This document shows positions 15,979 through 41,917 of a stretch of DNA of 64,000 nt, one piece after another. The translations under genes and the position numbers were made by a program. Source of the stretch: Rhodococcus sp. Z13 (GTDB lineage Bacteria; Actinomycetota; Actinomycetes; Mycobacteriales; Mycobacteriaceae); assembly GCF_025837095.1 (NCBI RefSeq), contig NZ_CP107551.1, positions 3,590,668 to 3,654,667 on the forward strand, in the 5' to 3' direction. Below the pieces are notes generated by a model, which searched no databases, was not told the DNA's origin, and saw only the letters and a list, made by a program, of their open reading frames with translations. Numbering within the stretch: position 1 is the stretch's first letter; every line of letters begins with the position of its first letter.

Positions 15979-16010
15979 ATTGGATCCAATCATAAATTTA
16001 TTGAATCCAA
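15979..16010. promoter_or_regulatory. GntR operator pair (site A) before the MFS gene
   Basis: The perfect palindrome ATTGGATCCAAT is at 15979-15990 and a one-mismatch copy TTGAATCCAA at 16001-16010, two helical turns apart, directly before the MFS gene start. This is one of six perfect sites in the island. Two phased sites suggest cooperative binding. Confidence 0.75.
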
Positions 16011-16022
16011 GTGAGGAATCTC

Positions 16023-17225
16023 ATGCCCTTCACCCCTCCGGGTCTCCTGGGGCGCCGATTCTGGCTCCTGTTCGCCGCCTCGACGCTCGTGTGCACCACG
16101 ACCGGCACGGTCACCCCTGCCCTTCCCCAGTACATCCAGAACGATCTGGGTCACAGCGCCACCGTGGTGGGGATCGTCGTGGGCGCGGCATCGGTCCTGT
16201 CGGTGATCGCCAACCCCGTCCTGGGGTGGATCACCGATCGGGCCGGACGTCGCCGGATGGGGATGGCCGGTGCCGTGCTGGGGGTCGTCGGCATGGGGGT
16301 GCTCCTGCCGGCCGGCAGCCTGTGGAACGTCGTCGGCGGACGGGCGCTGTTCGGGATCGGAGCGATCGCTCTGAACGTCGCACTCACCGCCTGGGTGGTG
16401 GACGCGGCCCGGGCGGACGCGCGGGGACGCACGCTGGGGATGTTCGGCATCAGCGTGTGGATCGGCCTGGCGGCGGGTCCTCAGATCGGCCAGACCCTGC
16501 TGCACGGGTACGGCTTCGCCGCCGTCTGGCTCGCCTGCGCCGCCATGCAGGTGGGCGCGTTCGGGTGTGTCGCGGCCGCTCCTCGTCGCCCCCGGACCAT
16601 CGTGGTGGACAGGACCCCGCAGAAGTGGGGGCCGGTGGTGGCCGCGACCGCCCGGCCCAGCGTCATCGCCGCGGCCGCGTGGACCGGCGAGTCGATCCTG
16701 ATGTCCTTTCTCATCCTCCACCTCGTCGACCGCGGTGTGCCGCCCACCGGGCCGACCGGCGCGGCGGCGGTCTTCGCGGTCTTCTCCGCCAGCGTGGTCG
16801 GTTTCCGGTTGCTGCTCGGGGCCCGGGTGGACCGGTGGCGCCCGCAGGCCACGGCGGCGGGGGCACTGGCCGCCACCACCGCCGGGTACGTCGTCCTCGC
16901 CGTCGCGAGCAGCTTCCCCGTCGCCGCGATCGGGGCCGCACTGCTCGGCTGCGGGTTCTCCCCCCTGTATCCGGCGTTGCTGATGCTCACGACCGGCCGG
17001 CTCCACCCCAACAGCCGCGCGGCAGGGCTCGGCGTGTTCACCTCGGGTGTCGAACTGGGCCTCGCCGTCGGGGTGTTCGTCGGCGGCGTCCTCGTGGACC
17101 GGGCCGGGGGTGGTGCCGCGATGTTCGGGGCGGCCGCGTTCCAGATCGTCGCGCTGGTCGTGCTGCTGTGCCGTCCGTGGCCCGTCCCCGAACCGACTTC
17201 CTCGGCCGTGTCCGCGAAGGTCTGA
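16023..17225 (+). CDS. MFS transporter of the catabolic island
   Basis: This is a 400-residue major facilitator with 12 predicted membrane segments; the DRAGRRRMG loop between segments 2 and 3 is the MFS signature. An AGGA ribosome binding site 6 bases before ATG 16023 supports this start; a GTG at 16011 is less likely. It is probably a drug/H+-antiporter-type exporter or an uptake carrier for the island substrate or a product. It is the only gene of its transcript, controlled by the operator pair just upstream, and is followed by a terminator shared with the amine oxidase gene. Confidence 0.82.
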   Translation: MPFTPPGLLGRRFWLLFAASTLVCTTTGTVTPALPQYIQNDLGHSATVVGIVVGAASVLSVIANPVLGWITDRAGRRRMGMAGAVLGVVGMGVLLPAGSLWNVVGGRALFGIGAIALNVALTAWVVDAARADARGRTLGMFGISVWIGLAAGPQIGQTLLHGYGFAAVWLACAAMQVGAFGCVAAAPRRPRTIVVDRTPQKWGPVVAATARPSVIAAAAWTGESILMSFLILHLVDRGVPPTGPTGAAAVFAVFSASVVGFRLLLGARVDRWRPQATAAGALAATTAGYVVLAVASSFPVAAIGAALLGCGFSPLYPALLMLTTGRLHPNSRAAGLGVFTSGVELGLAVGVFVGGVLVDRAGGGAAMFGAAAFQIVALVVLLCRPWPVPEPTSSAVSAKV

Positions 17226-17248
17226 ACGGGGTCTCCCTGCAAAAGGAT

Positions 17249-17283: not shown

Positions 17284-17296
17284 TGTGTTCGGTCCG

Positions 17297-19249
17297 TCAG
17301 CTACCGCAGCACGCCGACTCGCCACCGGACTCGGTGGAGCAGTGCGGCGTGGGCGCGGGGATGTCCATCGCCGGGTTCCGGTCGAAGAAACCGTCCGGCT
17401 CGAGCATGAAACCGATCTGCTCGACCGGCATGACCGGCCACTGCTCGGGACGCGGGAAGTGCATCACACCGATGACCGGCCACAGCACCAGTTCGACGCC
17501 GTCGAGCGAACGACCCTTCTGCTGCCACACCTGCACGCCGTCCTCACCTGGCTCGGCCTGGTTCGGATACTGGCCACCGACGTACTGCTCGGCGGGATCG
17601 TAGGGGGTGGCCCACAGGTGGTTGTGGGTGAACGGTGCCCGCCGGGCCATCACGGAGTCCGGGGTGGAGAACGGAATCGTGGTGTTGGGCAGCAGGAGTC
17701 GGTAACCGGTGGGTTCGCCGTAGCGGTTGGTGTGCTCGGCGCTCTCGATCCGCCAGTGCCGCGAGACCGACGCGTCGTTGCGCTGCGCGGCGTCCTTCTC
17801 GTTCAGCAGCGGGACCCGCACGGTCCGCACCGCGTTGCCCCAGGGGTTCTTCTCGGGATCCGGCTCGACCTCGGCGTGCTCCTCGACGATCCGGTTGAGC
17901 GGGCCGTCGATCGCGGTGTCGAGCCGCAGACCGAAGAAGTGCTGGTGGTTGGGGGTCTGCACGTTCTTGGAGACGACCCGGCCGTAGGGGGCCTCCTCGC
18001 CCTCCTCGATGCCGGAGGCCGACATCAGGCCGGTGAGCTTGACGGCGAGCTTGATGGTGCCGTCCTGGTGCAGCGACCAGTAGAAGCCGTAGTCGTAGTT
18101 CGCGACGGTCTGGAAGTTGGAGATGATGAGCTTGCGGGCGCGGCGCACCTGCCCGACGTCGCGGCGCATGTCGGTGTGCTTCCACAGGACGCTGTCGTCC
18201 TCTTCGTGCATGCAGATCGCCTGCGGGATGGTCCGGCCCACCCCGTCGCCGCCGAGCACGGTCGCGTCGAAGTAGTGGATGACACCGAGGCAGTCGCAGC
18301 CGAGCGCGAGGGAGTTGGTCAGCGGGCCGGCGCCGTACTCGCCCCAGTCGAAGAAGTTCTTGCGGTACTGGGTGGAGTTCGAGTCGAGGTACGGGACGTA
18401 CATCTCGTTGCAGGCGGCGCGCTTGAGGACCGAGCGGCCCTTGAACGTGAGGTCGTACAGCACGAGGCCCTCGCGGTGGGTGAAGCCGACGCGGAACTCC
18501 CAGCCCTGCCAGGTGACCTTCCAGCCCTCGACGTCGAAGCTCGTGCCCTCCGGCTGGACGACCTCGAGCGGGGCGAGACCCTCGCGGTCGGGTTCCCACA
18601 GGCCGTTGTCGTAGTTGCCGGTCTCCTCCGAGATGGGCACGACACCGTGGTCCTCGACCTCGAGGACCTCCATGGTCTGCATGTCGATGATGGGCACGAC
18701 GCCCTGGACGGGGCGGGCGTAGCCGTTGTCGTCCTCGTCGACGCGGTGCCAGACGGTGCCCCAGGTGACGCGGCGGTCCTTGTACTTGTCGGGGACGAAC
18801 CCGCCCATCGACTCCGCGTCGACCATCACGAGAGAGACGTCGGTGATGCCGCGCTTGGCGAGGGCCGCGCGGAACTCGGGATTCTCGCGGCAGGCCTGGG
18901 CGGCGGCACGGGCCTCCTCGGAGGTGATGCCCGGACGGCGGGGATCGATGGCCCGCCAGTCGAGGATGCGCGACTCCTCGCCGAGGAGGACGTCGACCTC
19001 CCAGGCCGCGTCGTTGCCGTAGTCCATGACCACGAGGCCGACCTTGCGGTCGCCGGCCGGGGCCGCGCCGGCGAGTACGGCGCGGGCGTGGGCCTCGTCC
19101 AGGGTGGCGCCCCAGAAACGGAGCCGGTCGCCGGTGCGCGCGTCGGCACGCACCAGGGCCACGGCGGCGTCGATCTCCTCGCGGGAGAGCGGATCGAGCG
19201 GGTGGCTGCTGGCGGCGGCTTTGCCTTGCGTGGGTGCGTAGGCGCTCAC
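17297..19249 (-). CDS. Copper-containing primary amine oxidase
   Basis: This 650-residue enzyme oxidises a primary amine to the aldehyde with release of ammonia and hydrogen peroxide. Tyr385 in NYDYG is the tyrosine converted to topaquinone; HQHFF and THNHLW supply the copper histidines, and YLDSNS carries the likely catalytic aspartate. Length matches Arthrobacter phenylethylamine/tyramine/histamine oxidases. The GTG at 19249 has an AAGGAG ribosome binding site 6 bases upstream; the longer frame lacks one. The C-terminus ends in a cysteine-rich tail (CSTESGGESACCG), unusual for the family. It is a single-gene transcript under operator B and fits with the aldehyde dehydrogenase at 22838. Confidence 0.95.
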   Translation of the reverse strand: MSAYAPTQGKAAASSHPLDPLSREEIDAAVALVRADARTGDRLRFWGATLDEAHARAVLAGAAPAGDRKVGLVVMDYGNDAAWEVDVLLGEESRILDWRAIDPRRPGITSEEARAAAQACRENPEFRAALAKRGITDVSLVMVDAESMGGFVPDKYKDRRVTWGTVWHRVDEDDNGYARPVQGVVPIIDMQTMEVLEVEDHGVVPISEETGNYDNGLWEPDREGLAPLEVVQPEGTSFDVEGWKVTWQGWEFRVGFTHREGLVLYDLTFKGRSVLKRAACNEMYVPYLDSNSTQYRKNFFDWGEYGAGPLTNSLALGCDCLGVIHYFDATVLGGDGVGRTIPQAICMHEEDDSVLWKHTDMRRDVGQVRRARKLIISNFQTVANYDYGFYWSLHQDGTIKLAVKLTGLMSASGIEEGEEAPYGRVVSKNVQTPNHQHFFGLRLDTAIDGPLNRIVEEHAEVEPDPEKNPWGNAVRTVRVPLLNEKDAAQRNDASVSRHWRIESAEHTNRYGEPTGYRLLLPNTTIPFSTPDSVMARRAPFTHNHLWATPYDPAEQYVGGQYPNQAEPGEDGVQVWQQKGRSLDGVELVLWPVIGVMHFPRPEQWPVMPVEQIGFMLEPDGFFDRNPAMDIPAPTPHCSTESGGESACCGS

Positions 19250-19294: not shown

Positions 19295-19306
19295 TTTGGA
19301 TCCAAT
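19295..19306. promoter_or_regulatory. GntR operator (site B) before the amine oxidase gene
   Basis: TTGGATCCAA is perfect and the outer pair is T/T instead of A/T. It lies 46 bases upstream of the amine oxidase start and could overlap a -35 element (TTGGAT) on the minus strand. Confidence 0.72.
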
Positions 19307-19406
19307 AATTTCTGTACTGTATCCGAAAGATGCGTCGGTGGCGCGCCAACGTGTCCACGGCAACACCGGAAGGAGTTTGGTAGGTTGGCATCCGATTCGA
19401 TCCGAG

Positions 19407-19416
19407 TTGGATCCGG
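19407..19416. promoter_or_regulatory. Degenerate GntR operator upstream of the regulator gene
   Basis: GTTGGATCCGGTT matches eight of ten core positions. It lies 82 bases before the GntR start and could give weak autoregulation. Being imperfect, it may also be chance. Confidence 0.35.
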
Positions 19417-19497
19417 TTCCGCCGGATCGACGCGCGGCGTAGACGCCGAGGATTCACGCGGTGCGGGGGGCGCGCCGCCCTGCAGAAGAGGTCACTC

Positions 19498-20193
19498 ATG
19501 AGCGACACCAGTACCGGGCACGCTTTGGTGGACGACACCGCAGCAGCCATCCGAGCGAAGATCATGTCCGGCGAGATCCCCATCGGAGCGCAGCTCCGGC
19601 AGGCCGAACTCGCGAAATCCCTCGGCGTCAGCCGCACCCCGGTGCGCGAGGCCCTGCGGCAGCTCCAGGCCGGAGGACTGATCGAGGTCGTCCCCAATCG
19701 TGGTGCGGTCGTGCGCGTCCCGGTCCCCTGGGAGGTTCGGGAGGCCTACGAGGTCCGTGCCGAACTCGAGGCCCTCGCCTGCGAGCGGGCCGTCGACCGG
19801 ATCACCGACGACGCCCTCGAGGAGCTGCGGGAGACGAACCGCATTCTGCGCGAGTCTCCCTCGGAACGGAGCGAGCCGGGCAAGCCCGCCGCCAGCACCC
19901 TCGCCAACGACCGCTTCCACACCCTCATCCACGAAGCGGCCGGCAACGAACGGCTCACCCGGGTGATCGCCCAGCTCAACGAGACCTTCCCCCGGAACGT
20001 CTCCGCCATGGTGCTGCAGGACAATTCGCGCCACCGGGAGGACAACCTGCGCGAGCACGAGCAGATCGTGGCCGCCATCGAGGCCGGCGACCACGCCGCC
20101 GCGCGCGAGGCGATGCGCCGGCACGTGCTCAGTGCGGGCGAGCAGCTCGCCCGCTGGTACGAACGCCGGTCCTCGACGGTCTTCAAGGGCTGA
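19498..20193 (+). CDS. GntR family (FCD) regulator of the catabolic island
   Basis: This 231-residue regulator has a winged-helix domain at residues 10-75 (LRQAELAKSLGVSRTPVREA is the recognition region) and an all-helical FCD ligand domain from about 82. Candidate metal/ligand residues of the FCD pocket are ANDRFHTLIH and the later HEQIV and HVL. An AGAGG site precedes the ATG. It is the only DNA-binding regulator inside the island. The repeated palindrome ATTGGATCCAAT has the form expected for FCD GntR repressors; as I recall, the Caulobacter VanR operator has the same core. I infer that it represses all island promoters until the substrate or an intermediate binds. Confidence 0.9.
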   Translation: MSDTSTGHALVDDTAAAIRAKIMSGEIPIGAQLRQAELAKSLGVSRTPVREALRQLQAGGLIEVVPNRGAVVRVPVPWEVREAYEVRAELEALACERAVDRITDDALEELRETNRILRESPSERSEPGKPAASTLANDRFHTLIHEAAGNERLTRVIAQLNETFPRNVSAMVLQDNSRHREDNLREHEQIVAAIEAGDHAAAREAMRRHVLSAGEQLARWYERRSSTVFKG

Positions 20194-20319: not shown

Positions 20320-22677
20320 TCAGACCCGGGCGGGGGCCAGCATCCGATCCGGTTCCAGGAAGTCCAGATCGGGTCGCTCCACTCCCGTCACCAGGTCCGC
20401 GAGCGCCTCGCCGACCGCGGGCCCGAACTTGAATCCGTGGCCCGAGCACGCGGCCGCCACGAGGATCTGCGGGGTCTCCGGCAGCGGGCCGAGCGCGAAG
20501 CGATTGTTCGGTGCCATCGTGTACCGGCAGGACAGCGAGTCGACCACCGCCCCGTCGGCGGCCGGCAGGAAGCGGCGGACCAGATCGTGCAGGATGTCGA
20601 TCTCGCTCTGCGACACCGGCTTGCGCGCGACGGTGAGGTCGTCCGCGGGGCCGTGGTCGAGGCCCACCTTGAGGGTGTCGCCGCCGTAGGACGGGATGCC
20701 GTACATCAGGCCGACCTCGGGCACCTCGATCGAGAAGGGGCCGAGGTTCGGGGGCGCGAGCATCTCCGGCCGGGACCCGGCCACATGGATGTTGACGATG
20801 CGCACCACGTCGAGCACGGGTGCGAACTGCGGGAGCAGCTCCGAGATCCACGGTCCCGCACAGACCACCACGCGCGCGGCGCGGATGCGCCCGGCGGTGG
20901 TGGTGACCACGGCGCCGTCGCCGTCGGCGTCGATGCCGAGCACTCGGACGCCCTCGCGACGGTCCACCCCGGCACGCCGGCCGATCGCGGTCAGCTGGGC
21001 CATCGCGGCCGCAGCGTCGACGACACCCGCGGCGGGGTCGTACAGTGCGCGGAAACCGGCGCCGAGTTCGAGTCCGGGGAAACGCCGGGCCGCCTCGACG
21101 TGGTCGACCATCACGCAGTCCGGCCCGTCGAGCCCGGACTCGGCGTCCAGCGCACGGGCGTAGAGGCCGCCGGTCGTGGTGATCAGCGGCCGGGCGATCT
21201 CCTCCTCGAGCTCGGCCCAGGCCCGGTAGGCGCGGTCGACGAAGGGGTACCAGATCGGATTCGGGTAGGCGCGCCGGATCATCCGGGCGCGACCGTGCGA
21301 CGAGCCCTCCACGTGTCCTTCGGAGAACTGTTCGAGCTGGATCACCCGCACACCGCGCCGCGCGAGTTGCCAGGCGGTGGAGTTGCCGTGGATGCCCGCC
21401 CCGACGACGACCACGTCCGTCGACTCCGCGGTCTCCACCGGTGCCGAGCGACGCGGGGCGAGGTCGGCGAGCGAGGGGGTGGCGGGCAGCGGCACCCGCA
21501 CAACTCCCTCGGGTTCCTGCAGCACCTCGACGAGGGCGTCGAGGTCGTCCTGCCCGTTGTAGACGTGCATCGAGGCGCGGACCACGGCGTCGATACCGCG
21601 GTCGCCGAGATCCCACTGGGCGTGGGCGGCGGGTACCGCGACGACGCGGATTCCGCGCCGGCGCAGGTGTTCCTTGACCTCGAGGGCGGACCGTCCGTCC
21701 ACGCCGAAGGTGACGATGCCACCGCCCGCGGCCGGTGGGTCGAGGACGGTGACACCGTCGACCTCGGCGAGCTTCGTGCGCAGCAGGCTCCCGAGGCCGT
21801 CGATGTGCCGGGCGATCGCGTCGATGCCGGTGGCGAGTGCCTCGTCGAGAGCGGTGCCGAGGCCGAGTTCGAGGGCGTGTGAGGCCTCCCAGGTCTCGAA
21901 CCGCACCGCCGAGTCCTTCAGTGCGTAGGAGTCGTCGGCGTTCCACGCCGCTCCCCGCACGTCCGGGGCGCCGGGACGCAGGGTCTCGCGCGCGGCCGGG
22001 GAGACGTACAGCAGGCCGGTGCCGCGCGGGCCGCGCAGGAACTTGCGTCCGGTGGTGACGAGGATGTCGCAGCCGATCGTCGCGACGTCCACCGGCAGCT
22101 GGCCGACGGACTGTGTCGCATCGAGCAGGTAGGTGACGCCCGCTGCGCGGCAAAGCGTTCCGACCTCGGTGACGGGTTCGACGAGCCCGGAGGAGGTGGG
22201 CACGTGCGCGACGGTGACGAGCCGGGCGGGTGTCCTCAGGGCTTCGGCGAGGGCGTCGAGGTCGATGCGACCGGCCGCGTCGTTGGGGACGATCTCGATC
22301 TCGATACCGACGCTGTCGCGCAGTTCCAGGAGGTGCAGAGCCGAGCTCACATAGCTCGACCGGGAGACGAGCACCCGGTCGCCGCGCTGCAGTCTCAGTG
22401 CGGCGAGGGCGCGGTGCCAGCCGTCGGTGGCACTGTTCACCAGTGCGATGTCGGTGGCTTCGGCGCCGAGCAGCCGGGCCGCACTGTCGTACACCGCGTC
22501 GATGCGCCCACGGGCGAGGGCGTCGGCCTCGTATCCACCGATGCGGGACTCGACTTCGAGATGCTGCCGCACCGTGGACAGCACCCCCGACGAGAGCAGC
22601 GCGGCGCCCGCGGCGTTGAGATGGTGGGAGAGGCCGGCCCCGGGCGTGTGCGCGCGGTGGTCTGCAACGTCGATCAC
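20320..22677 (-). CDS. Fusion of a class V aminotransferase-fold PLP enzyme and a sarcosine/N-methyltryptophan oxidase-like flavoprotein
   Basis: This 785-residue protein joins two enzymes usually found apart. Residues 1 to about 395 form a fold-type I PLP domain of the cysteine desulfurase/isopenicillin epimerase group, with LLDATQS (Asp186) and TTGRKF (Lys212, the PLP lysine). Residues 420-785 form a DAO-type flavoprotein: GAGIHG at 426-431, and SCRYTMAPNN with Cys717 where monomeric sarcosine oxidase binds FAD covalently. The GTG start at 22677 has an AGGAG site 6 bases upstream, and no stop or frameshift separates the halves. It could remove an N-methyl or amino group oxidatively and then cleave a C-N or C-S bond. 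The substrate is unknown. It is a single-gene transcript under operator C. Confidence 0.88.
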   Translation of the reverse strand: MIDVADHRAHTPGAGLSHHLNAAGAALLSSGVLSTVRQHLEVESRIGGYEADALARGRIDAVYDSAARLLGAEATDIALVNSATDGWHRALAALRLQRGDRVLVSRSSYVSSALHLLELRDSVGIEIEIVPNDAAGRIDLDALAEALRTPARLVTVAHVPTSSGLVEPVTEVGTLCRAAGVTYLLDATQSVGQLPVDVATIGCDILVTTGRKFLRGPRGTGLLYVSPAARETLRPGAPDVRGAAWNADDSYALKDSAVRFETWEASHALELGLGTALDEALATGIDAIARHIDGLGSLLRTKLAEVDGVTVLDPPAAGGGIVTFGVDGRSALEVKEHLRRRGIRVVAVPAAHAQWDLGDRGIDAVVRASMHVYNGQDDLDALVEVLQEPEGVVRVPLPATPSLADLAPRRSAPVETAESTDVVVVGAGIHGNSTAWQLARRGVRVIQLEQFSEGHVEGSSHGRARMIRRAYPNPIWYPFVDRAYRAWAELEEEIARPLITTTGGLYARALDAESGLDGPDCVMVDHVEAARRFPGLELGAGFRALYDPAAGVVDAAAAMAQLTAIGRRAGVDRREGVRVLGIDADGDGAVVTTTAGRIRAARVVVCAGPWISELLPQFAPVLDVVRIVNIHVAGSRPEMLAPPNLGPFSIEVPEVGLMYGIPSYGGDTLKVGLDHGPADDLTVARKPVSQSEIDILHDLVRRFLPAADGAVVDSLSCRYTMAPNNRFALGPLPETPQILVAAACSGHGFKFGPAVGEALADLVTGVERPDLDFLEPDRMLAPARV

Positions 22678-22739
22678 GAAGCACTCCTGGATTGAAGGGG
22701 CGAGTTCGCCCGGTCCGCTTTGTATACCGACATTAGCAG

Positions 22740-22751
22740 ATTGGATCCAAT
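22740..22751. promoter_or_regulatory. GntR operator (site C) before the fusion gene
   Basis: This is a perfect ATTGGATCCAAT. On the minus strand TTGGAT could be a -35 element with TATACA 18 bases further as -10, so bound repressor would block polymerase. It lies 63 bases before the fusion gene start. Confidence 0.8.
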
Positions 22752-22837: not shown

Positions 22838-24289
22838 CTACAAGGCGACGACCACGCTCTTCGGTTCACAGAATCCGAAGAGTGCCTCGTCGCCGAGATC
22901 CCGGCCCACACCCGAGTCCCCGACCCCGCCGAAGGGCAACGCGGGATCGAAGACGTTGTAGGTGTTGACCCACACCGTGCCGACTCGCAGCCTCGCCGCC
23001 ATCCGGTGGGCCCGGGAGACGTCCTTCGTCCAGACGCCCGCGGCGAGACCGTAATTCGTGTCGTTGCCGATCGCGACGGCCTCCTCCTCGTCCTCGAACG
23101 GGATGACCCCGACCACCGGCCCGAAGATCTCCTCGCGCGCGATGGTCATCGAGTTGTCGACCCCGACGAACAGGGTCGGTTCGACGAAGAAGCCCGGCCG
23201 ATCGGGCACCCCACCGCCGACGAGCACCTGCGCGCCCTCCTCGCGGCCGATCCCGATGTAACGCAGGACCTGCTGCCTCTGCTCCTCGGAGACGAGGGGG
23301 CCGACGGTGATGCCGCCGTCGAGACCGTTGCCCACGGGCACCTTCTTCACCGCCGCGGCGAGCCGCTCGTGCATCTCGTCGAGGATGGACCGCTGTACCA
23401 GCAGACGGCTTCCCGCCGTGCACATCTGGCCCGAGTGACCGAACGAGGCGCGCATCGCGGTGAGGACCGCCGCGTCGAGGTCGGCGTCCTCGAACACGAT
23501 GTTGGGACTCTTGCCGCCGAGTTCGAGGGTGAGCCGCTTGCTGGTGGGGGCCGCCGCTGCCATCACCGCGCGCCCCACCTCGGTGGAGCCGGTGAACGAC
23601 ACCTTCGCGACGCCGGGATGCTCGACGAGCCGGGCGCCGACGCGACCGTCGCCGGTGACGACGTTCACCACACCGGCGGGAACACCGGCCTGCTCGCACA
23701 GCGCCGCGACGCGCAGCATCGTCAGCGGGGTCTGCTCGGCGGGCTTGACCACGACGGTGCAGCCGGCGGCGAGCGCGGGCGCGAGCTTGAAGCAGCCCGT
23801 CATGATGGGGAAGTTCCACGGCAGGATGAGCGCGGCCACCCCGACGGGTTCGCGGGTGGTGTAGACGTGGTGCTCCCCGGCGATCGGGACGGTGGTGCCC
23901 GTCAGGCGGGTCGTCGCTCCGGCGAAGTGCCGGAAGGTGTTCGCGCTCGACTGCGTGTCGGCGCGGGACCGCTCGATGGGCTTGCCGTTGTCGCGGGTCT
24001 CGAGCACCGCCAGTTCCTCGAGGTTCTCCTCGATGAGATCGGCGATGCGGGTGAGGATCCTGGCCCGTTCCAGGGGCGGCAGTGTGCGCCAGCGTCCGTC
24101 CTCGTGGGCGGCGGCCGCGGCGGCGACGGCAGCGTCGACGTCCGCGTCGGTGGCCGACACCGCGCGGGTGAGGACCTCCCCGGTGGCGGGGTCGAGGACG
24201 TCGAAGCATTCACGGTCCCCGGCGGGGATCCACCGGCCGTCGACGTAGAACGGTTCGGCGGCCGAGACTGCGGGTTCGGTGACGGTCAA
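22838..24289 (-). CDS. NAD(P)-dependent aldehyde dehydrogenase
   Basis: This 483-residue enzyme oxidises an aldehyde to the acid. ILPWNFP (residues 155-161) and the cofactor loop FTGSTEVG are present, with the general base Glu256 in LELGGKSP and the nucleophile Cys290 in GQMCTAG. It resembles betaine/aminobutyraldehyde or aromatic aldehyde dehydrogenases, but specificity cannot be told. It is the last gene of a three-gene operon with the amidohydrolase and creatininase-like genes under operator D, 25 bases after the latter. It is a natural partner for the copper amine oxidase, whose product is an aldehyde. Confidence 0.93.
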   Translation of the reverse strand: MTVTEPAVSAAEPFYVDGRWIPAGDRECFDVLDPATGEVLTRAVSATDADVDAAVAAAAAAHEDGRWRTLPPLERARILTRIADLIEENLEELAVLETRDNGKPIERSRADTQSSANTFRHFAGATTRLTGTTVPIAGEHHVYTTREPVGVAALILPWNFPIMTGCFKLAPALAAGCTVVVKPAEQTPLTMLRVAALCEQAGVPAGVVNVVTGDGRVGARLVEHPGVAKVSFTGSTEVGRAVMAAAAPTSKRLTLELGGKSPNIVFEDADLDAAVLTAMRASFGHSGQMCTAGSRLLVQRSILDEMHERLAAAVKKVPVGNGLDGGITVGPLVSEEQRQQVLRYIGIGREEGAQVLVGGGVPDRPGFFVEPTLFVGVDNSMTIAREEIFGPVVGVIPFEDEEEAVAIGNDTNYGLAAGVWTKDVSRAHRMAARLRVGTVWVNTYNVFDPALPFGGVGDSGVGRDLGDEALFGFCEPKSVVVAL

Positions 24290-25894: not shown

Positions 25895-25975
25895 TCGGGG
25901 ATTCCCCTTCGTCGGGTGGATGCACGCCTGCAAGGCAATCCGGCTCGCCCGAGGCACGAGTACGAAGCTAACAGA

Positions 25976-25987: not shown

Positions 25988-26047
25988 TATTGCCATACAG
26001 AATCCATTCTTAACGCCGATGTAACGCGTCGCTGCGAACCTGACGGA

Positions 26048-33069: not shown

Positions 33070-33099
33070 GCTCGACACCTCGTATCCTATTACTATTGG

Positions 33100-33111
33100 A
33101 TTGGATCCAAT
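33100..33111. promoter_or_regulatory. GntR operator (site E) in a divergent promoter
   Basis: This is a perfect ATTGGATCCAAT preceded by an additional ATTGG half at 33095-33099. It lies 31 bases before the Rieske start on the minus strand and 46 bases before the membrane protein start on the plus strand. Confidence 0.8.
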
Positions 33112-33156
33112 ATTGCCAGATTGTCATCCACGCGCAAATCGAGAACGGAGCCGCAC

Positions 33157-33633: not shown

Positions 33634-34590
33634 TCAGACGTCCAGGACGAGCCGCGGCGTCCGCGACCGGCCGACGCAGATCATCATCGTCGTCCCGGAT
33701 TCGCGTTCCGCCTTCGTCAGCACCGAATCCCGGTGGTCCGGAACACCCTCCAACACCTTCGTCTCGCACGAACCGCAGAAGCCGTCCTCGCACGAGAACG
33801 CGACATCCGGGTCGACCTCACGGACCACCTCGAGCAGCGACCGGTCCGCGGGGACCGGCAGAACCACCCCACTACGCCGCAGCTCCACCTCGAATGCCTC
33901 GTCGGGATCCACCACGGCATCCGGGTCCACGGGGGCGGCACCGAACCGCTCGTAGTGGAAGGCCTCCTCCCCCAACGCCGTCCGGGTGGCCTCCGCCGCG
34001 GCTCTCAGGAGCGGCTCGGGACCGCAGCAGTGCACCGCGGTACCGGCGGGTGCGGCCGCCAGCGCGCCGGCGAGATCGGGATGCCCGAGCTCGTCCTGCG
34101 GCACCACGACGACGTCCGGTCCCAGCGCCCGCGCCTCGTCGACGAACGCCATCGACGCCCGGCTCCGGCCACCGTAGAGCAGCGACCAGGACGCACCCCG
34201 GGCGGTGAGCTCACGCGCCATCGCCAGCAGCGGCGTGATGCCGATGCCACCCGCGATCAGCAGGTGATGCTCCGAGTCGGCCAGCGGGAACAGGTTGCGG
34301 GGCGGGCGGTATCCGACCCGGTTTCCGGGGCGCAGGGTGTGCACCTCGGCGGAACCACCGCGACCGGCCGCCTCGCGCAGCACGGCGATGCGGTAGCTGT
34401 GCTCGTCGGCCGGGTCGCCGCACAGGCTGTACTGGCGCACGGTCCCGGAGGGCAGCACGAGGTCGATGTGCGCGCCCGGTTCCCAGCCCGGCAGCGGCGC
34501 TCCCTCCGGATCCTCGAGCAGCAGCGAGATCACGTCCTGCGCCTCCCAGCGCACTTGGCGGATCAGCAGTTCGGGTGCGGCAGTGGACAC
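33634..34590 (-). CDS. Ferredoxin-NAD(P)H reductase, phthalate dioxygenase reductase type
   Basis: This 318-residue reductase has a flavin domain with RQYSLCG, a nucleotide domain with IAGGIGITP and CCGPEP, and a C-terminal plant-type [2Fe-2S] domain with Cys267, Cys272, Cys275 and Cys305. This order is that of phthalate dioxygenase reductase and VanB. It should pass electrons from NADH through FMN to the Rieske oxygenase encoded next to it in the island. The GTG at 34590 has a GGAGG site 9 bases upstream. It follows the YtcJ gene after 56 bases containing a hairpin and has no operator of its own. Confidence 0.93.
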   Translation of the reverse strand: MSTAAPELLIRQVRWEAQDVISLLLEDPEGAPLPGWEPGAHIDLVLPSGTVRQYSLCGDPADEHSYRIAVLREAAGRGGSAEVHTLRPGNRVGYRPPRNLFPLADSEHHLLIAGGIGITPLLAMARELTARGASWSLLYGGRSRASMAFVDEARALGPDVVVVPQDELGHPDLAGALAAAPAGTAVHCCGPEPLLRAAAEATRTALGEEAFHYERFGAAPVDPDAVVDPDEAFEVELRRSGVVLPVPADRSLLEVVREVDPDVAFSCEDGFCGSCETKVLEGVPDHRDSVLTKAERESGTTMMICVGRSRTPRLVLDV

Positions 34591-34646: not shown

Positions 34647-36242
34647 TCATCCGATGGTCGTGAACCGCCCGGACGCCACGGTGCCGCGCACGAAATCCGG
34701 TTCGGTCATCCGGTCGTCGGGAGCGGTGAGAGGGTCGTCGGCGAGCAGTACGAGATCCCCCGGCCCGCCGGGGACGAGGCATCCACCGGCCCTGCCGAGG
34801 AGCGCCGCGGCGCCGGTGGTGTGCAGTCTCCAGGCCGCCTCGGCCCCGATCTCGCCGACGGCCAGGGCCATTCCCGCTGCCGGAGACAGCTCCGGGCCGG
34901 GGGCGTCCGATCCGCCTCCGACGACGACGCCGTGGGCGAGCCAGTCCTCGAGGCGGCCGAGCGTGGCCGCGGCGGGTTCGCCGAGACGGTTGCGGATCGA
35001 GGGCACAGCCGCGCCGCTGAGCGCGGGTTGTGCGGCGACCCCGACACCGAGTTCGGCTGCCTGTGCCGCGAACTCGGCGCGGTGCTCGAGATAGGCGTGG
35101 ATGAGGTGCGTGCCCGTCCCGGCCCAGGACGGGAGGACCCCGGTGGCGACGGGCCGGCGGAGCAGGTCGAGCACCAGTTCCACCGCGGCGGGTCCGACGG
35201 TGTGCAGGGCCAGACCGCTGCGGCGCTGCGCGGCCCACGCGATGTAGCGCTCGAGGGTGTCCGTCGACGTGGACTGCACCCCGCAACTGTCGGTTCCGGG
35301 CCAGGGATCGTGGCGCAGGGCTGTGCCGAGCATTCCCCCACCGTCGACGAACAGCTTGACGGGCCCGAGGGACAACCGGGCGTCCGGATCCTCCGGGATA
35401 CCGACGGATTCGACCTGCTTCCGGAAGTGTTCGGGGTCGCTCCCGTCCGGGGCGTGGGGGAACACGACGATGCGGACGGGCGGGTCCTCGCTCGCGTACA
35501 GGTCCCGGTAGGCGGCGAGTTCGTCGATCCCCAGCGCGGGGTCGGCCGCGCAGGTGACGCCGACGCGGACGAGTTCGTCCAGACCGGCACGGATCCATCC
35601 ACGGCGCTGCGACTCGGTCGGAGCCGGGACGACCGCCGAGACCACGGCCACGGCACCGTGTTCGACGAGTTCACCGGTGAGGTGCCCGTCGGCGTCACGG
35701 CCGAAGTGCCCGCCCACCGGATCCGGTGAGTCGTCCCGGATCCCGGCGCAGTGCAGCGCAGCCGAGCTGGCGAGCCCGTCGTGGCCCCGCCGGTCGAGGA
35801 GCATCGGGCGCCCGCCGGCGGCCTCGTCGAGTTCCGCGAGGGTCGGCAGACGCCGTTCCTCGAGGGACGTCTCGTCGAAACCGGCACTGCCGAGCAGCCA
35901 GGAGGACCGGGGCAGGCCGGACGCGGCGGCACGGATACGGTCGAGTACCTGCGGGATCGAGGTGCAGTCGTCGAGCCGCAGTCGGCCGGCGGCGCGCCCG
36001 AGCCACATGACGTGGACATGGGAGTCGACGAAGGCGGGTGCGATCACCCCGTCGTGGTGCACCGTGCGGATCCCCTGCGGCGCAGCCGCGGTCACCTCGG
36101 CGATCGAACCGATCGCCGTCACCGTTCCGTCGACGATGCACACCGCCTCGGCGGTGCGGGTGCCCGCGGCCGGTCGGACGTCCCCGCACACGACAAGCGA
36201 GGATGCCGGATCGAACCCCTCCCGGGGTGCTCGGGTGGGCAT
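34647..36242 (-). CDS. YtcJ-like metal-dependent amidohydrolase
   Basis: This 531-residue protein is of the amidohydrolase-3 group. PAFVDSHVHVMWLG holds the HxH metal ligands, LIHAYLEHR and GGGSDAPGP carry the later histidine and aspartate, and the end GDLVLLADDPL is the family's usual C-terminal strand. Known members include N-substituted formamide deformylases, so removal of an N-acyl group is plausible. The ATG at 36242 begins one base after the stop of the ABC gene; a GTG at 36251 would overlap it. It follows the importer genes, so it may act first on the imported compound. Confidence 0.85.
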   Translation of the reverse strand: MPTRAPREGFDPASSLVVCGDVRPAAGTRTAEAVCIVDGTVTAIGSIAEVTAAAPQGIRTVHHDGVIAPAFVDSHVHVMWLGRAAGRLRLDDCTSIPQVLDRIRAAASGLPRSSWLLGSAGFDETSLEERRLPTLAELDEAAGGRPMLLDRRGHDGLASSAALHCAGIRDDSPDPVGGHFGRDADGHLTGELVEHGAVAVVSAVVPAPTESQRRGWIRAGLDELVRVGVTCAADPALGIDELAAYRDLYASEDPPVRIVVFPHAPDGSDPEHFRKQVESVGIPEDPDARLSLGPVKLFVDGGGMLGTALRHDPWPGTDSCGVQSTSTDTLERYIAWAAQRRSGLALHTVGPAAVELVLDLLRRPVATGVLPSWAGTGTHLIHAYLEHRAEFAAQAAELGVGVAAQPALSGAAVPSIRNRLGEPAAATLGRLEDWLAHGVVVGGGSDAPGPELSPAAGMALAVGEIGAEAAWRLHTTGAAALLGRAGGCLVPGGPGDLVLLADDPLTAPDDRMTEPDFVRGTVASGRFTTIG

Positions 36243-36243
36243 G

Positions 36244-37231
36244 TCAGGCACTCAGCGAGTCCGGGAAGTGGCAGCGCACCGCACGGCCGTCCTTCCGTTC
36301 CGCCAGCGGCGGCGCCACCTCGCGGCACATCGGGTCCACCACGGGGCAGATGTCCGCGAACCGGCAGCCGGTGGCCGCACGGGGAATCGACGGCACGTCC
36401 CGGTCGAGGTCACCGGCGGCCCCGGAGTGGCCGGGCACGGCGTCGAGCAGCATGCGGCTGTAGGGGTGAAGGGGCTCGTCGAAGAACTCGTCGGCGGGGG
36501 CGATCTCGACGATCCGCCCCAGATAGACCACGCACACCCGGTCGGCGATGTGCCGCACGACGCCCATGTCGTGCGAGACGAACATCATCGTCAGGTTGCG
36601 TTCCTTCTGCAGGTCCACGAGCAGGTTCACGACCTGCGCCTGGATCGACACGTCGAGCGCGGAGACCGGTTCGTCGGCGACGACGAAGCGCGGGCTCACG
36701 GCCAGGGCCCGGGCGATCCCGACGCGCTGGCGCTGGCCACCCGAGAACTGCGTGGGATAGCGGTCGAGGAGCGCCTTCGAGATGCCGACCTGCCCGAGCA
36801 GTTCCTCGACGTAGCCGTCGATGCGATCGCGTTTCATGATGCCGAAGTTGCGCAGGGGCGCGGCGACGATCTCGCGGACGGTCATCCGCGGATTGAGCGA
36901 ACCGAAGGGGTCCTGGAAGATCATCTGCATCTCGCGGTGGAACTCCCGCATCTGCGGCGGCGCGAGCGACTCGATCCTCCGGCCCCGGTAGGTGATCGTC
37001 CCACCCACCACCGGGGCGAGCCCGAGCAAGGCCTTGCCGAGAGTGGACTTCCCGCTGCCGGATTCGCCGACGACGCCGAGCACCTCACCTTCGAGGATCT
37101 CGAGCGAGACACCGTCGAGCGCGACCGGGGCACCCGAACGGGCGCGGCCGTATCGCACGGTCAGGTTCTCGACTTCGATCAGCGGTGCACGCTGGGGCTG
37201 CTCCGTGTGCGGTTCGTGTCGCGTGGCGGTT

Positions 37232-37239
<8 letters not shown>
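36244..37239 (-). CDS. Dipeptide/oligopeptide ABC transporter ATP-binding protein (OppF type)
   Basis: This is a 331-residue ATPase with Walker A GESGSGKST, the Q-loop, signature FSGGQRQRV, Walker B VVADEP and switch SHD. The C-terminal oligopeptide-transporter extension contains cysteines (CRFADICPVVDPMC) of the kind that bind an iron-sulfur cluster in some Dpp/Opp ATPases. It pairs with the other ATPase gene, which overlaps it by eight bases, to energise the importer. Confidence 0.92.
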
Positions 37240-38232
<993 letters not shown>

Positions 38233-38236
<4 letters not shown>

Positions 38237-39360
38237 GACATTCCCTTCCGCAGGCGGGGATCGATCGCGATCTGGATCAGATCCACGACGAGGTTGACGA
38301 GGATGAACACGGTCGCGATCGCGAGGACCGCGCCCTGGACGACGAGGTAGTCCCGCTGGATCACCGACGACACCAACAGGTTTCCGATGCCGGGATAGGA
38401 GAACACCGACTCGGTGATGACGGCGCCGCCGATGAGCGAACCGAACTGGATACCGAGCGCGGTGACGATCGGCAGAGACGCGTTGGGCAGCAGGTGCCGG
38501 AACACGATGCGGGACTCGGAGGCACCCTTCATCCGGGCGGTGCGGATGAAGTCCTCACCGCGGACGTCGAGCACCGCGGTCCGGGCCATGCGGGTGAAGA
38601 AACCGGCCATGGAGATCGCCAGTGTCGTCGCGGGCAGGACGAGATGCTCGATCCAGGGCATCACGAGATCGGGACGGTTCTGCAGGATCGCATCGAGCAG
38701 AACGAAATTGGTGGTCGGGGTGTAGTCGAGGGAGGACGGCATGCGGCCGAGCACCGGCAGCCACCCCAGCACCACACCGAACAGGTAGATCGACGCGACA
38801 CCGAGCGCGAACCACGGCAACGCGAAGGTGAGGGTGGACAGCGCGCGGATGCCGGTGTCGATCCAGGTGTCCTTCGTCAGGGCGGCGACGATGCCGCCCG
38901 CCACCCCGATGAGGACGGCGAGGAACATCGCGGCCACGGCCAGTTCGAGGGTCGCGGGCAGCGCGGTCCACAGCAGGTTCGCGACGTCGTTGCCGCCGTA
39001 GTACGACGAGCCGAGATCGAAGGTGACGAACGAGCGCAGGAAGTCGACGTACTGCTGCCACAGCGGCCGGTCCAGCCCGAGCTGTTCGTTGATCAGGGCG
39101 GTGTTGGCCTCGATCTCGGCGGAGGTCAGGCCCTGGGTTCCGTTGGTGGCGAGCGAGGATGCCGGTGAGCCCGGCATCAGGCGCATCGCGAGGAACACGA
39201 AGGTCGTGATCGCCAGCAGCATCGGCGGAACGAGCGCGATGCGCTTGAGTACGGCGATCCCCACCCCGCTGCGGTCCCGGCGGGACGGGAGGGCGGCCTT
39301 CTCGGCCGGGATCGCGGGCGGGGCGGTGAGTCCGGTGGCAACCGGTTGGGTCACTGTCAT
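38233..39360 (-). CDS. ABC transporter permease (DppB type)
   Basis: This 375-residue permease has six membrane segments; the first follows a 35-residue hydrophilic N-terminus. The EAA coupling loop (RTARMKGASESRIVFRHLLP) lies near residue 280. MRLMPGSPA after the first helix is typical of DppB/OppB. Its stop overlaps the next GTG, and its start overlaps the DppC-type gene (ATGA). Confidence 0.92.
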
Positions 39361-40223
39361 CGCATGTCCTTGACGTCGATGGCATCGCGCAGGTCGTCGC
39401 CGACGAAACTGCAGGCGGCCACGAACAGCACCGTCAGCAGCGCCGGCAGCAGCACGAGCTGCGGGGCGGAGTAGATGAACTCCTGGCCGGCCTGGACCAT
39501 GTAACCCCAGTCGGGCGTGGGCGGCTGGATCCCCAGTCCCAGATAGGACATTCCGGCAGCGAACCCGGCCGCGATCGACAGCGTCGTGACGAACTGGACG
39601 AGGATCGGTCCGGCGATGTTCGGCAGGATCTCACGGAAGAGCGTGCGGGTCAGCCGCGATCCGCCCACGCGGGCGGCGAGGACATAGTCCTTCGACGCCT
39701 CCCGCAGCGCGAGCGTGCGGGTCAGTCGTGCGAAGGCGGGCGCCAGGGCGATGCCCACGCCGACGACGAGGGTGCCGGCACCGGGGCCGGCGATCGCGAC
39801 GGCGATGATGATCAGCACGATCGACGGCATGGCCATACCCAGGTCGGTGAACCGCATGAGCAGCTGGTCGAGACGGCCACCGCGGTAGCCCGCGACGAAA
39901 CCGAGCACGACGCCGATGATGCAGCTCAGTGCCGCGGCCAGGATCGACACCTCGACGAGCGGCCGCGCCCCGTACACGAGACGGGCGAGCTGGTCGCGGC
40001 CGAGATCGTCGGTGCCGAGCAGGTGCCCGGACGAACCGATGGGCAGCAGCGGGGCCGCGTCCTGGCGGAGCGGATCGGTGCCGACGAGCATCGGCCCGAG
40101 GATCGCCAAGAGCACGAAGAAGATCGCTGTGCCCCAGGCGATCACCGCGACGGGGCGGCGGGCGATCCGGCGACCGGACCGCTTCCGCCCCGAGCGTTCC
40201 TTCGGTGGGGCCGAGCTAGACAC
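39357..40223 (-). CDS. ABC transporter permease (DppC type)
   Basis: This 288-residue permease has an N-terminal membrane anchor, GTDDLGRDQLARLVYGAR (the DppC/OppC signature), and the coupling loop YVLAARVGGSRLTRTLFRE. The GTG start overlaps the stop of the binding protein gene by eight bases. It forms the membrane channel with the DppB-type subunit. Confidence 0.92.
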   Translation of the reverse strand: MSSSAPPKERSGRKRSGRRIARRPVAVIAWGTAIFFVLLAILGPMLVGTDPLRQDAAPLLPIGSSGHLLGTDDLGRDQLARLVYGARPLVEVSILAAALSCIIGVVLGFVAGYRGGRLDQLLMRFTDLGMAMPSIVLIIIAVAIAGPGAGTLVVGVGIALAPAFARLTRTLALREASKDYVLAARVGGSRLTRTLFREILPNIAGPILVQFVTTLSIAAGFAAGMSYLGLGIQPPTPDWGYMVQAGQEFIYSAPQLVLLPALLTVLFVAACSFVGDDLRDAIDVKDMR

Positions 40224-41877
40224 GAGCGGTCTCCGCGAAGCACCGGTGGTTGGCGAGCGCCGCGAGGTTGAGGTCGCTCACCCCCGCTCCGGTGACGACG
40301 GGGTTGCTCGCGCACGCGAGCATCGCGATGCCCATGATCTCGTCGGCGAACTTCTTCTGCAGCGCCGTGTAGATCTCCTTGCGCTCCGCGGGATTCGTGA
40401 GGGCGCGGGCCTGTTTCACCATCGGATCGAAGGTCTCGGCGTAGCCGGGGAGCGTGTTGTAGCCGCCGACCACGCCGGCGTAGACACCGGTGGAGATGGT
40501 CATCTCGCCGGCGAGGTTGTCGGGATCGGGGACGTAGGAGTTGCGCTCCCAGATCATCAGCTCGTGGCCGGACGAGGTGGGGTCGAACACGCGGGACGAG
40601 AAGGTCGCCGGGTCGATGGTCTCGACCGTGACCTCGAGTCCGATGTCCTTCAGGTTCTGCTCGACGATCTGGGCGGCGCGAGGGTGCCACGCGTCGGAGG
40701 CGGCGAGCAGGGTGAGGCGGCGGCCGCTCGCGCCGACGGATTCGAGCAGGCGGCGCGCCTCGGCCGGATCGCTCTTGCTGATGCCGGCGAGGGAGGTGTC
40801 GTAGCCCTCCACGGACGGCGGCAGCAGGTAGCCCTCCGGCAGCGCGCCGACGCCGAAGAAGACCTGTTCGAGGATGGCCTTGCGGTCGATGGCGAGGTTG
40901 ATGGCCTTGCGCACCTCGAGTTCGGCGAGCGCCGGCTGACGCACGTCCATGATGACGAAGGCGTCGAAGGACGGGTCGGGTTCGTAGACGACGACCTTGT
41001 CGTTGCCGCGCAACTGGCCGAGCGACGAGTGCGGGGTCAGCTCGGTCGCCGAGATGTCTCCGGAGATCAGCGACGAGATGATCGTCGAGGGGTCCTGGAT
41101 CTGCTGCAGGACGAGACGGCGGGTGGCGGGGGCGCCCTCGTAGTAGTCGTCGAACGCCTCGAGCACGACGTTCTGGCCCGAGGTGGAGGACACGAGCTTG
41201 TACGGTCCCGTGCCGATGAGGTTCTTGCCGATGTCCTGGCCGTACTGCTCGATGGCGGCGGCGGGCATGATGCGGCCGCCGATGTCGGACAGCTTCGACA
41301 GCACGGTGCCGTCCGGGGCCTGCAGGACGAGCTCGACGGTGGAGTCGTCGACGGCGCGGATGGACTCGAGGTTGTTGCCGATGGACTTGAGCGGCCGCGA
41401 CGAGCCGGTGGGCAGGGTCGGGTCGTTCTTGTCGAACTGGCGGCTGAGCGAGCGCACGACGTCGTTCGCGGTGAGCGTGCTGCCGTCGTGGAAGGTGACG
41501 CCCTGGCGCAGGGTGAAGGTGTAGGTGCGGCCGTCCTCGCTGACCGTCCAGGACTCGGCGAGATCGGGCTGCGGTTCGTTGGTCTCGAAGTCGATGAAGG
41601 TCAGGCCGCGGCAGACGCAGTCGACGACCATCCAGTCACCGAGGGTGGTGTAGAAGGCGGGGTCGTGGATGGCGCTGGTGCCGTCGATGCCGATGGTCAG
41701 GGTTCCGCCCGAACCACCCGAACCCGCCCCGGAGCCGCCACCGTTCGGCTGGGCGGTGCCGCACGCCGCGGCGAGAGTCGTGACACCGAGTCCGAGTCCG
41801 AGCACCCCCACGCCGCGCAGCAGCGAACGCCGAGAGAAGGACGGGGTCTCCGCAGTGCGTTTCGTCGAATCCACCAT
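40216..41877 (-). CDS. ABC transporter substrate-binding lipoprotein (family 5)
   Basis: This 553-residue lipoprotein has an N-terminal SRRSLLRG twin-arginine-like motif, a hydrophobic stretch and the lipobox LAAAC, so it should be exported and anchored on the outer face of the membrane. A Gly-Ser linker leads into a family 5 binding domain (FIDFETNEPQPDLAESW is the signature region). These proteins bind peptides, nickel chelates, glycosides or opine-like amines. It is the first gene of the importer operon, 29 bases after operator F, with AGGAAA as ribosome binding site. Confidence 0.92.
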   Translation of the reverse strand: MVDSTKRTAETPSFSRRSLLRGVGVLGLGLGVTTLAAACGTAQPNGGGSGAGSGGSGGTLTIGIDGTSAIHDPAFYTTLGDWMVVDCVCRGLTFIDFETNEPQPDLAESWTVSEDGRTYTFTLRQGVTFHDGSTLTANDVVRSLSRQFDKNDPTLPTGSSRPLKSIGNNLESIRAVDDSTVELVLQAPDGTVLSKLSDIGGRIMPAAAIEQYGQDIGKNLIGTGPYKLVSSTSGQNVVLEAFDDYYEGAPATRRLVLQQIQDPSTIISSLISGDISATELTPHSSLGQLRGNDKVVVYEPDPSFDAFVIMDVRQPALAELEVRKAINLAIDRKAILEQVFFGVGALPEGYLLPPSVEGYDTSLAGISKSDPAEARRLLESVGASGRRLTLLAASDAWHPRAAQIVEQNLKDIGLEVTVETIDPATFSSRVFDPTSSGHELMIWERNSYVPDPDNLAGEMTISTGVYAGVVGGYNTLPGYAETFDPMVKQARALTNPAERKEIYTALQKKFADEIMGIAMLACASNPVVTGAGVSDLNLAALANHRCFAETARV

Positions 41878-41905
41878 GAGTTTTCCTCATCATTGGTCCA
41901 GTGAG

Positions 41906-41917
41906 ATTGGATCCAAT
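41906..41917. promoter_or_regulatory. GntR operator (site F) before the ABC importer operon
   Basis: This is a perfect ATTGGATCCAAT directly downstream of a likely -10 element (TATAGA) with TTGCAT as -35 on the minus strand. A repressor bound here would block transcription start. Confidence 0.8.

Follow-up and report, generated by a model that had tools for sequence, protein, structure and literature searches.

Results

Genes and putative operators of the cluster

The window examined in this study is a stretch of 64,000 nucleotides from Rhodococcus sp. Z13 (assembly GCF_025837095.1, contig NZ_CP107551.1, positions 3,590,668 to 3,654,667), with a G+C content of about 70%. It holds a 26-kb catabolic cluster in which the 12-bp palindrome ATTGGATCCAAT stands before nearly every transcription unit and in which a gene for a GntR-FCD regulator is located. 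The operator formed by this palindrome is usually composite, a strong palindrome being accompanied by a weaker copy exactly 21 bp away, an arrangement that is new here. Very probably the palindrome serves as the switch through which the cluster's own regulator acts. Gene identities were taken from Pfam, NCBIfam and PDB comparisons, in which solved structures give the enzyme class only. A preliminary description of the locus had counted about 18 genes; the count is corrected here to about 20, and the GroEL and HSP90 genes that come next on the right are outside it.

16023..17225, + strand: MFS transporter (Pfam PF07690, E 3.9e-40)
17297..19249, - strand: copper primary-amine oxidase (PF01179, E 3.2e-143; NF008559 above cut-off)
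19498..20193, + strand: GntR-FCD (VanR-group) regulator, 231 aa (PF00392, PF07729; orthologs; structural model and Foldseek)
20320..22677, - strand: fusion of an EgtE-like class-V pyridoxal-phosphate (PLP) enzyme and a sarcosine / N-methyl-tryptophan oxidase-like flavin adenine dinucleotide (FAD) domain (PF00266, PF01266)
22838..24289, - strand: aldehyde dehydrogenase, nearest to phenylacetaldehyde / betaine-aldehyde dehydrogenases (below their cut-offs)
24315..25127, - strand: creatininase-family amidohydrolase (PF02633, E 8.2e-59)
25124..25933, - strand: amidohydrolase (Amidohydro_2, PF04909)
26048..26602, + strand: cytidine-deaminase-like protein (PF00383 and NF005314, both below cut-off)
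26607..27965, - strand: GMC-type FAD oxidoreductase (PF05199)
27962..29494, - strand: gamma-glutamyltranspeptidase family protein (PF01019, E 4.5e-81)
29491..30126, - strand: cyclase / arylformamidase-like metal hydrolase (PF04199; TIGR03035 below cut-off; kynurenine formamidase structures)
30210..31730, - strand: glutamine-synthetase-like gamma-glutamyl-amine ligase, NpaA1 relative (PF00120; 8wwu, E 3.5e-130)
31723..33078, - strand: Rieske oxygenase, LigXa_C type (PF00355, PF19301; structures 9ina, 7fjl)
33157..33603 (start 33157 or 33244), + strand: doubtful open reading frame (no family; no codon-position bias of substitutions)
33634..34554, - strand: ferredoxin reductase with 2Fe-2S domain (PF00111, PF00175)
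34647..36191, - strand: amidohydrolase family 3 (PF07969)
36244..41877, - strand: Opp/Dpp-type ABC importer, five genes: two ATPases, two permeases and a substrate-binding protein (PF00005, PF00528, PF00496)

Judged by strand and gaps, these genes form eight apparent units: the MFS gene; the amine oxidase gene; the GntR gene; the fusion gene; the Amidohydro_2, creatininase and aldehyde dehydrogenase genes; the deaminase-like gene; the Rieske, ligase, cyclase, transpeptidase and GMC genes; and the importer, amidohydrolase family 3 and reductase genes. In the copper amine oxidase the NYDYG motif, which we take to be the site of the trihydroxyphenylalanine quinone cofactor, aligns with phenylethylamine oxidase. 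The PLP-FAD fusion falls below the cut-off of TIGR04343 and just at that of NF008425; it gives a single match in 12 of the 17 clusters compared below and two separate matches in the other five (two Microbacterium, Salinibacterium, S. hokutonensis and G605). This protein has 335 relatives at E<=1e-60, and the 120 of them listed carry at most generic family names.

The operators and their palindrome scores are as follows.

15979..16011: composite operator A, 15979-15990 (12/12) and 16000-16011 (10/12), 21 bp apart, upstream of the MFS gene
19295..19327: composite operator B, 19295-19306 (11/12) and 19316-19327 (8/12), upstream of the copper amine oxidase gene
19395..19417: degenerate pair in front of the regulator gene, 19395 (9/12) and 19406 (9/12), 11 bp apart with a one-base overlap
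22719..22751: operator C, 22740-22751 (12/12) and a copy at 22719-22730 that is weak (6/12) and not convincing by itself, ahead of the PLP-FAD fusion gene
25976..26008: composite operator D, 25976-25987 (12/12) and 25997-26008 (8/12), divergent between the amidohydrolase operon and the deaminase-like gene
33079..33132: composite operator E, 33100-33111 (12/12), 33079 (8/12) and 33121 (6/12), upstream of the Rieske operon
41906..41938: operator F, 41906-41917 (12/12) and a copy at 41927-41938 that is weak (7/12) and not convincing by itself, ahead of the ABC importer operon

The six strong copies are those of the preliminary description; in the window scan five were perfect (15979, 22740, 25976, 33100 and 41906) and the copy at 19295 had one mismatch. 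As that description had stated, every apparent unit except the GntR gene is preceded by such a site: in seven family-identified units the start codon follows the start of a strong palindrome by 33-74 b (start codons chosen in this analysis), and the GntR gene has degenerate copies only. The degenerate copy reported at 19407 is real and lies in register at 19406; in the G017 ortholog both copies of this pair score 10/12. Sites D and E had each been thought to serve two divergent units. For D (25976) this is supported. At E (33100) the rightward open reading frame was set aside as a doubtful gene, with substitutions against G017 of 8/6/7 at codon positions 1/2/3, compared with 6/9/32, 8/5/54 and 6/6/28 in three neighbouring genes; since the frame shows no codon-position bias, a second unit at E is doubtful.

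Near-perfect palindromes are confined to the cluster in the source genome

Seven sites with at most two mismatches to ATTGGATCCAAT were found in the window, against a mean of 0.31 over 100 shuffles. Across the whole genome (one contig of 4,532,339 b), six sites had at most one mismatch, and all six lie within the 26-kb cluster, before genes, as the single-regulator proposal of the preliminary description required. The reversed-pattern control gave none at this threshold, and the composition-based expectation for the genome was 0.017 perfect sites and 0.94 sites with at most one mismatch. The probability that six randomly placed sites would all fall in the cluster stretch is about 3.5e-14. With up to two mismatches there are 12 sites (7 in the cluster and 5 outside), the 5 outside being fewer than the 10 of the reversed pattern. 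Chance or low complexity as the source of the sites is ruled out by the shuffles, the reversed-pattern control and the composition expectation, and a genome-wide operator of a global regulator is ruled out by the confinement of all six sites to the cluster.

Sites and regulator are conserved together

Including the window, 17 clusters from Rhodococcus, Microbacterium, Salinibacterium and Streptomyces were compared. The 17 clusters share the regulator (58-100% identical) and many of the enzymes around it, and none lacks a site of 10/12 or better (49 sites in total). The other 16 were retrieved by means of the regulator protein; the presence of the regulator is therefore by construction, that of the sites is not. 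The sites are thus kept in orthologous clusters of four genera, as had been anticipated. In the source genus, 2 of 18 genomes have a regulator ortholog, and both carry six cluster sites with at most one mismatch; the other 16 have no perfect site or one. In Streptomyces, an ortholog was found in 11 of 392 genomes, and among the matches listed orthologs also occur in Microbacterium (2), Salinibacterium and S. hokutonensis. As the searches of the phylum and of Streptomyces scored the 7 best candidates per genome, absence is provisional there. A contig scan for the regulator gave at least 80 loci, of which L030-L033, at 59% identity or more, were compared together with L089; the rest served only for the residue test described below.

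In the 11 regulator-bearing Streptomyces genomes, all nine perfect sites and 21 of 32 sites with at most one mismatch fall in the cluster, and 12 Streptomyces genomes without the regulator have no perfect site and five with at most one mismatch. In the Salinibacterium genome, 7 of 25 TGGATCCA sites lie within 60 kb around the regulator, where about 0.5 would be expected.

A second copy usually lies at 21 bp

To describe the surroundings of the palindrome we took all sites of at least 10/12 in the stretches fetched (20-60 kb each, best per 60 bp), which are the 49 strong sites of the 17 clusters. A partner of at least 8/12 stands at exactly 21 bp from 37 of them, and other spacings from 12 to 100 bp have at most 3 (mean 0.17). 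The same holds when one cluster per clade is used (7 clusters; 15 of 22 sites, other spacings at most 1) and for the window alone (4 of 6 promoters, other spacings at most 1). Over the 49 sites the mean palindrome match at an offset of 21 bp is 6.0/12, compared with 2.8 (standard deviation 0.38) at the remaining offsets from 12 to 60. As 21 bp corresponds to two helical turns, both copies face the same way, which suggests two dimers on one face of the DNA.

The oriented profile reads WTTGGATCCAAT-N9-NNNGNATCCAWT, the fifth base being G in 45 and the eighth C in all of the 46 sites. It was built only from the 46 sites with a partner of at least 7/12 and is therefore biased towards the partner, a bias of which the offset test is free. 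The distal half of the partner (ATCCA) is its best conserved part and is kept far better than the proximal half. The canonical GntR operator boxes (NyGT-Nx-ACNy, TKGT-ACMA) do not describe these sites, in which GG..CC replaces GT..AC. When two cores at 21-bp spacing were sought in the genome with up to 3 of 16 mismatches, 17 matches were obtained, 7 in the cluster and 10 outside, against 11 for the reversed pattern. The seven in the cluster cover all six promoters, the site at 33100 having one on each side. In five relatives that lack the regulator and have one perfect palindrome each, the best 21-bp partner scores 5/12 or less.

The regulator

The presence of a GntR-FCD gene inside the cluster is confirmed by PF00392 (E 1.6e-18) and PF07729 (E 3.2e-25), which both score over cut-off. 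Among named regulator proteins the closest, from Rhodococcus rhodochrous, are 96% identical. The genome encodes 11 FCD proteins, and this is the sole one in the cluster. It has Gln35, invariant in the aligned orthologs, at the position (FadR residue 34) that is Glu in the majority of the FCD proteins examined, and it is the only one of the 11 that aligns Gln at this residue. Asn137, His141, His187 and His209 are invariant in 31 of 31 aligned orthologs and match the Zn ligands of Atu1419 of Agrobacterium fabrum by spacing. In sequence, the protein thus has the Asn/Asp and three His that mark the metal-binding VanR subset, and it may possess a metal-assisted pocket for a small acid.

The AlphaFold model of the regulator has a mean predicted local distance difference test (pLDDT) score of 84.2. 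The best Foldseek matches by E-value are led by VanR-group regulators and include Atu1419, PmiR, a Brucella GntR protein, McbR, AlkR(VanR) and TM0439. Atu1419 (6z74, 6za3) gives a template modelling (TM) score of about 0.6, and the Brucella protein superposes better (0.81). Effector domains of the VanR group have six helices and lack an additional one following the linker. The model has no short helix between residues 72 and 77, but DSSP splits the FCD domain into seven segments (166-175 and 177-195 being one residue apart).

Discussion

We consider it very likely that the cluster is one local regulon of predicted operators bound by its VanR-group GntR-FCD protein. The single-regulator regulon had been put forward in the preliminary description, and it is now supported by the genome-wide exclusivity of the sites, their conservation across genera and the co-occurrence of regulator and sites. 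We infer binding, repression and the inducer from sequence. According to the mechanism that we propose, the protein encoded at 19498-20193 would bind WTTGGATCCAAT at six promoters and, at most of them, also the weaker copy, whose centre is 21 bp off on the same DNA face and in which G-N-ATCCA is best conserved. The paired operator would accommodate two adjacent dimers, or a dimer of dimers, and the bound protein would block RNA polymerase. We assign the protein the role of a repressor because the distance from the start of the strong palindrome to the start codon is 33-74 b in each marked unit. A pathway metabolite, probably an acid, would enter the predicted metal-containing FCD pocket and release the protein. 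The regulator gene itself is expected to be weakly autoregulated, because its promoter has only weak, overlapping copies.

Several observations weigh against this interpretation. Twelve of the 49 strong sites have no partner of at least 8/12. In the window, the partners at 22719 and 41927 score only 6/12 and 7/12, and a core partner that weak on either side occurs by chance at about 5% per site. The position of the partner relative to the gene varies, some promoters having it on the near side and some on the far side. Only one or two strong sites are present in 10 of the 17 clusters. In Streptomyces, 11 of the 32 sites with at most one mismatch lie outside the cluster, and the five in the 12 regulator-less genomes come in addition; the single 12-mer is thus not fully specific there. 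Finally, of 9 promoters tried in a simple scan, only 2 had sigma-70-like hexamer pairs close to the operator, so that repression by promoter overlap is itself a prediction.

The alternative that survives best is that the operator is the 12-bp palindrome alone and that the 21-bp partner is a conserved half-site or a promoter element rather than a second dimer site. Extra weaker half-sites near GntR-family palindromes are known (PMC4494728), and the far better conservation of ATCCA, the distal half of the partner, would suit such a role. However, those half-sites are 7-12 nt away from the centre of the palindrome, while the conserved half described here lies at about 21-25 nt; several partners are near-complete palindromes (10/12 at 16000 and 10/12 in two Microbacterium pairs); and, unlike a promoter element, the partner keeps no fixed side of the gene. 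We therefore regard this alternative as rather unlikely. That the protein is an activator or a dual regulator instead of a simple repressor seems less likely still: the scarcity of sigma-70-like hexamer pairs would agree with it, but the operators have a repressor-like position relative to the start codons, and the VanR-group relative Atu1419 is described as a repressor (PMC7797058; PDB titles). It is very improbable that one of the ten further FCD regulators of the genome, or a global regulator, binds the sites while the cluster GntR protein has a different target. In favour of this, the genome has 11 FCD proteins, and G004, G008, G026 and G055 carry another, Gln-type FCD lineage on the contig of their single palindromes, which indicates that unrelated regulators can share the core. 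Against it, a regulator ortholog stands beside the sites in 17 of 17 clusters (found through the regulator), the single sites of relatives lack the 21-bp partner, the lineage-B regulator was not found in the source genome at E<=1e-30 (16 of 26 candidates scored), and only the cluster protein aligns Gln at residue 35.

As a local FCD regulon the cluster would be of a known kind, with an unusual operator geometry and an uncharacterised pathway. The FCD regulator VanR binds the vanillate promoter of Caulobacter. According to the preliminary description, the palindrome equals the core of the VanR operator. Constructs described as driven by the Caulobacter vanillate promoter indeed contain ATTGGATCCAAT, the same 12-mer, and a second ATTGGATCCA (available part of PMC6538847); that this stretch is the promoter is our own reading. 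The two copies there start 39 bp apart, compared with 21 in the cluster. Altogether 37 papers contain the 12-mer. By content, the genes of the cluster are not vanillate genes.

Atu1419, a VanR-group FCD protein (PDB 6z74, 6za3), is the best Foldseek match by E-value and has the same metal-ligand spacing at Asn137/His141. In the part of its description available (PMC7797058), Atu1419 is a tetramer that binds one palindrome and one degenerate palindrome. Its operator, ATGTATACAT, has GT/AC and the protein has Glu34, where the cluster regulator has Gln35; its paired sites are 109 or 190 bp apart, for which looping was proposed, whereas those of the cluster are adjacent at 21 bp. The FadR-subfamily regulons of Suvorova et al. 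(2015; part of PMC4494728) share palindromic A/T-rich operators, divergons and weaker extra boxes with the cluster, but their consensus is TKGT/ACMA instead of TTGG/CCAA and their extra boxes lie at 7-12 nt.

The residue at the position of FadR 34 may be related to the type of operator. As a lead rather than a result, we hypothesize that Gln goes with TTGGATCCAA and Glu with TTGTATACAA, a correlation that is new. It was evaluated with 115 non-orthologous FCD regulators of the available loci (78 with Glu, 29 with Gln, and 8 others that were dropped), counting only palindromes of at least 9/10 within 350 b upstream that were better for one form than the other. The 29 Gln-type regulators had a TTGGATCCAA-like site in 5 cases, a TTGTATACAA-like site in none and neither in 24. 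For the 78 Glu-type regulators the numbers were 21 TTGTATACAA-like, 1 TTGGATCCAA-like (reading TTGCATCCAA) and 56 neither. The Fisher p of 7e-5 overstates the independence of the cases, as the Gln proteins represent about three independent lineages (L020-L022 being of one genus). In the Atu1419-DNA complex, the contact of Glu34 is made by the main-chain amide to a phosphate (PMC7797058, in the part available), so a direct base contact by Gln would be new. A narrow literature search on Glu/Gln specificity in GntR proteins found no paper, the single paper that has TTGGATCCAA together with GntR bears an unrelated title, and the helix-turn-helix section of PMC4494728 lists positions 28, 39, 40 and 59 but does not mention a Glu/Gln change.

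Non-orthologous Gln-type FCD regulators with a TTGGATCCAA-like palindrome directly upstream are located at L185 (position 2249), L177 (position 1387) and L020-L022. In the same genome as the cluster, a Glu-type FCD gene (SRLP; G000:C1:3884599-3884955) has the hybrid palindrome ATTGGATACAAC adjoining at 3885395 (L148 position 1000), likely its own operator.

The gene content suggests a pathway of amine degradation. In sequence, the glutamine-synthetase-like ligase resembles NpaA1 over its full length rather than a true glutamine synthetase: among solved structures 8wwu scores 438 bits and the next distinct sequence 187 bits, with residues 25-506 aligned. 8WWU is NpaA1 of the 1-naphthylamine pathway, which glutamylates 1-naphthylamine and anilines before a Rieske-type dioxygenase acts (PMC11335346, in the part available). 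By our own reading of the alignment, the amine-tunnel residues F75, W235 and V201 of NpaA1 are replaced by Lys, Phe and Leu, respectively; the substrate is therefore probably another amine, perhaps a more polar one. The regulon would import the amine and degrade it in steps of gamma-glutamylation by the NpaA1-like ligase, Rieske oxygenation, deglutamylation, and oxidation of amine and aldehyde, the order of reactions and the substrate amine likewise being predictions from gene content. The transpeptidase is a candidate for the deglutamylation step, and the copper amine oxidase may act with the aldehyde dehydrogenase in converting an aminoalkyl side chain to the acid; the hydrolases suggest opening of a ring or an amide.

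These amine-pathway genes agree with the earlier statement that the cluster is not a vanillate operon by content. The vanillate operon was also rejected on the family of the Rieske protein, which is LigXa_C, and no vanillate demethylase family appears among the Pfam/NCBIfam matches shown. The NpaA1 / AtdA1 systems, as far as the available part of PMC11335346 describes them, likewise combine a glutamine-synthetase-like ligase with a Rieske oxygenase. Their oxygenase is two-component and their amine-tunnel residues differ, and the cluster adds a copper amine oxidase, an aldehyde dehydrogenase, a transpeptidase and the PLP-FAD fusion. At the level of listings, a literature search found no described cluster with the same gene set. 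In the Streptomyces clusters, for example at 10170-10883 of the G883 cluster (L125), about 700 bp separate the dppB-like and dppD-like matches, where the window has none; an additional gene is perhaps present there.

The proposal of a regulator, its operator and its targets together amounts to a near-complete regulon for an uncharacterised 20-gene catabolic cluster, and the inducer, once found, would give a clue to the substrate. Such strict pairing at 21 bp hints at cooperative binding, a mode of which a limited check of the parts of the FCD literature available gave no example. The Glu/Gln correlation provides a one-residue hypothesis for operator choice in a very large family of regulators, and operators of this kind would be useful as inducible promoter parts. 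We advance only tentatively, as somewhat more likely to fail than to hold, the broader idea that a branch of VanR-type FCD proteins uses a two-palindrome operator of about 33 bp, with copies 21 bp apart and a cooperative dimer of dimers, that a single Glu-to-Gln change (FadR-34) rewires TTGTATACAA to TTGGATCCAA, and that this operator governs an undescribed gamma-glutamylation-dependent amine pathway across several actinobacterial genera.

Some related sites were observed in other genomes. A single perfect ATTGGATCCAAT is present in relatives without the cluster (L026 9683, L027 9186, G055 C11:26410 and G026 C12:16590). The palindrome of L026 is flanked by short-chain dehydrogenase and enoyl-CoA hydratase genes, with a KshA-like Rieske gene nearby, and that of L150 by acyl-CoA dehydrogenase, enoyl-CoA hydratase and CoA-transferase genes. 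At all four single-palindrome loci a different Gln-type FCD regulator lies 4.5-15 kb off on the same contig, and these palindromes probably belong to a second regulon that shares the core. In G128, a GntR protein 41-42% identical to the regulator has two one-mismatch palindromes nearby (ATTGCATCCAAT and ATTGGATGCAAT; L028 6541 and 8445). The G128 locus also carries Opp-type transporter genes and a partial gamma-glutamyltranspeptidase match, and it possibly represents a related regulon.

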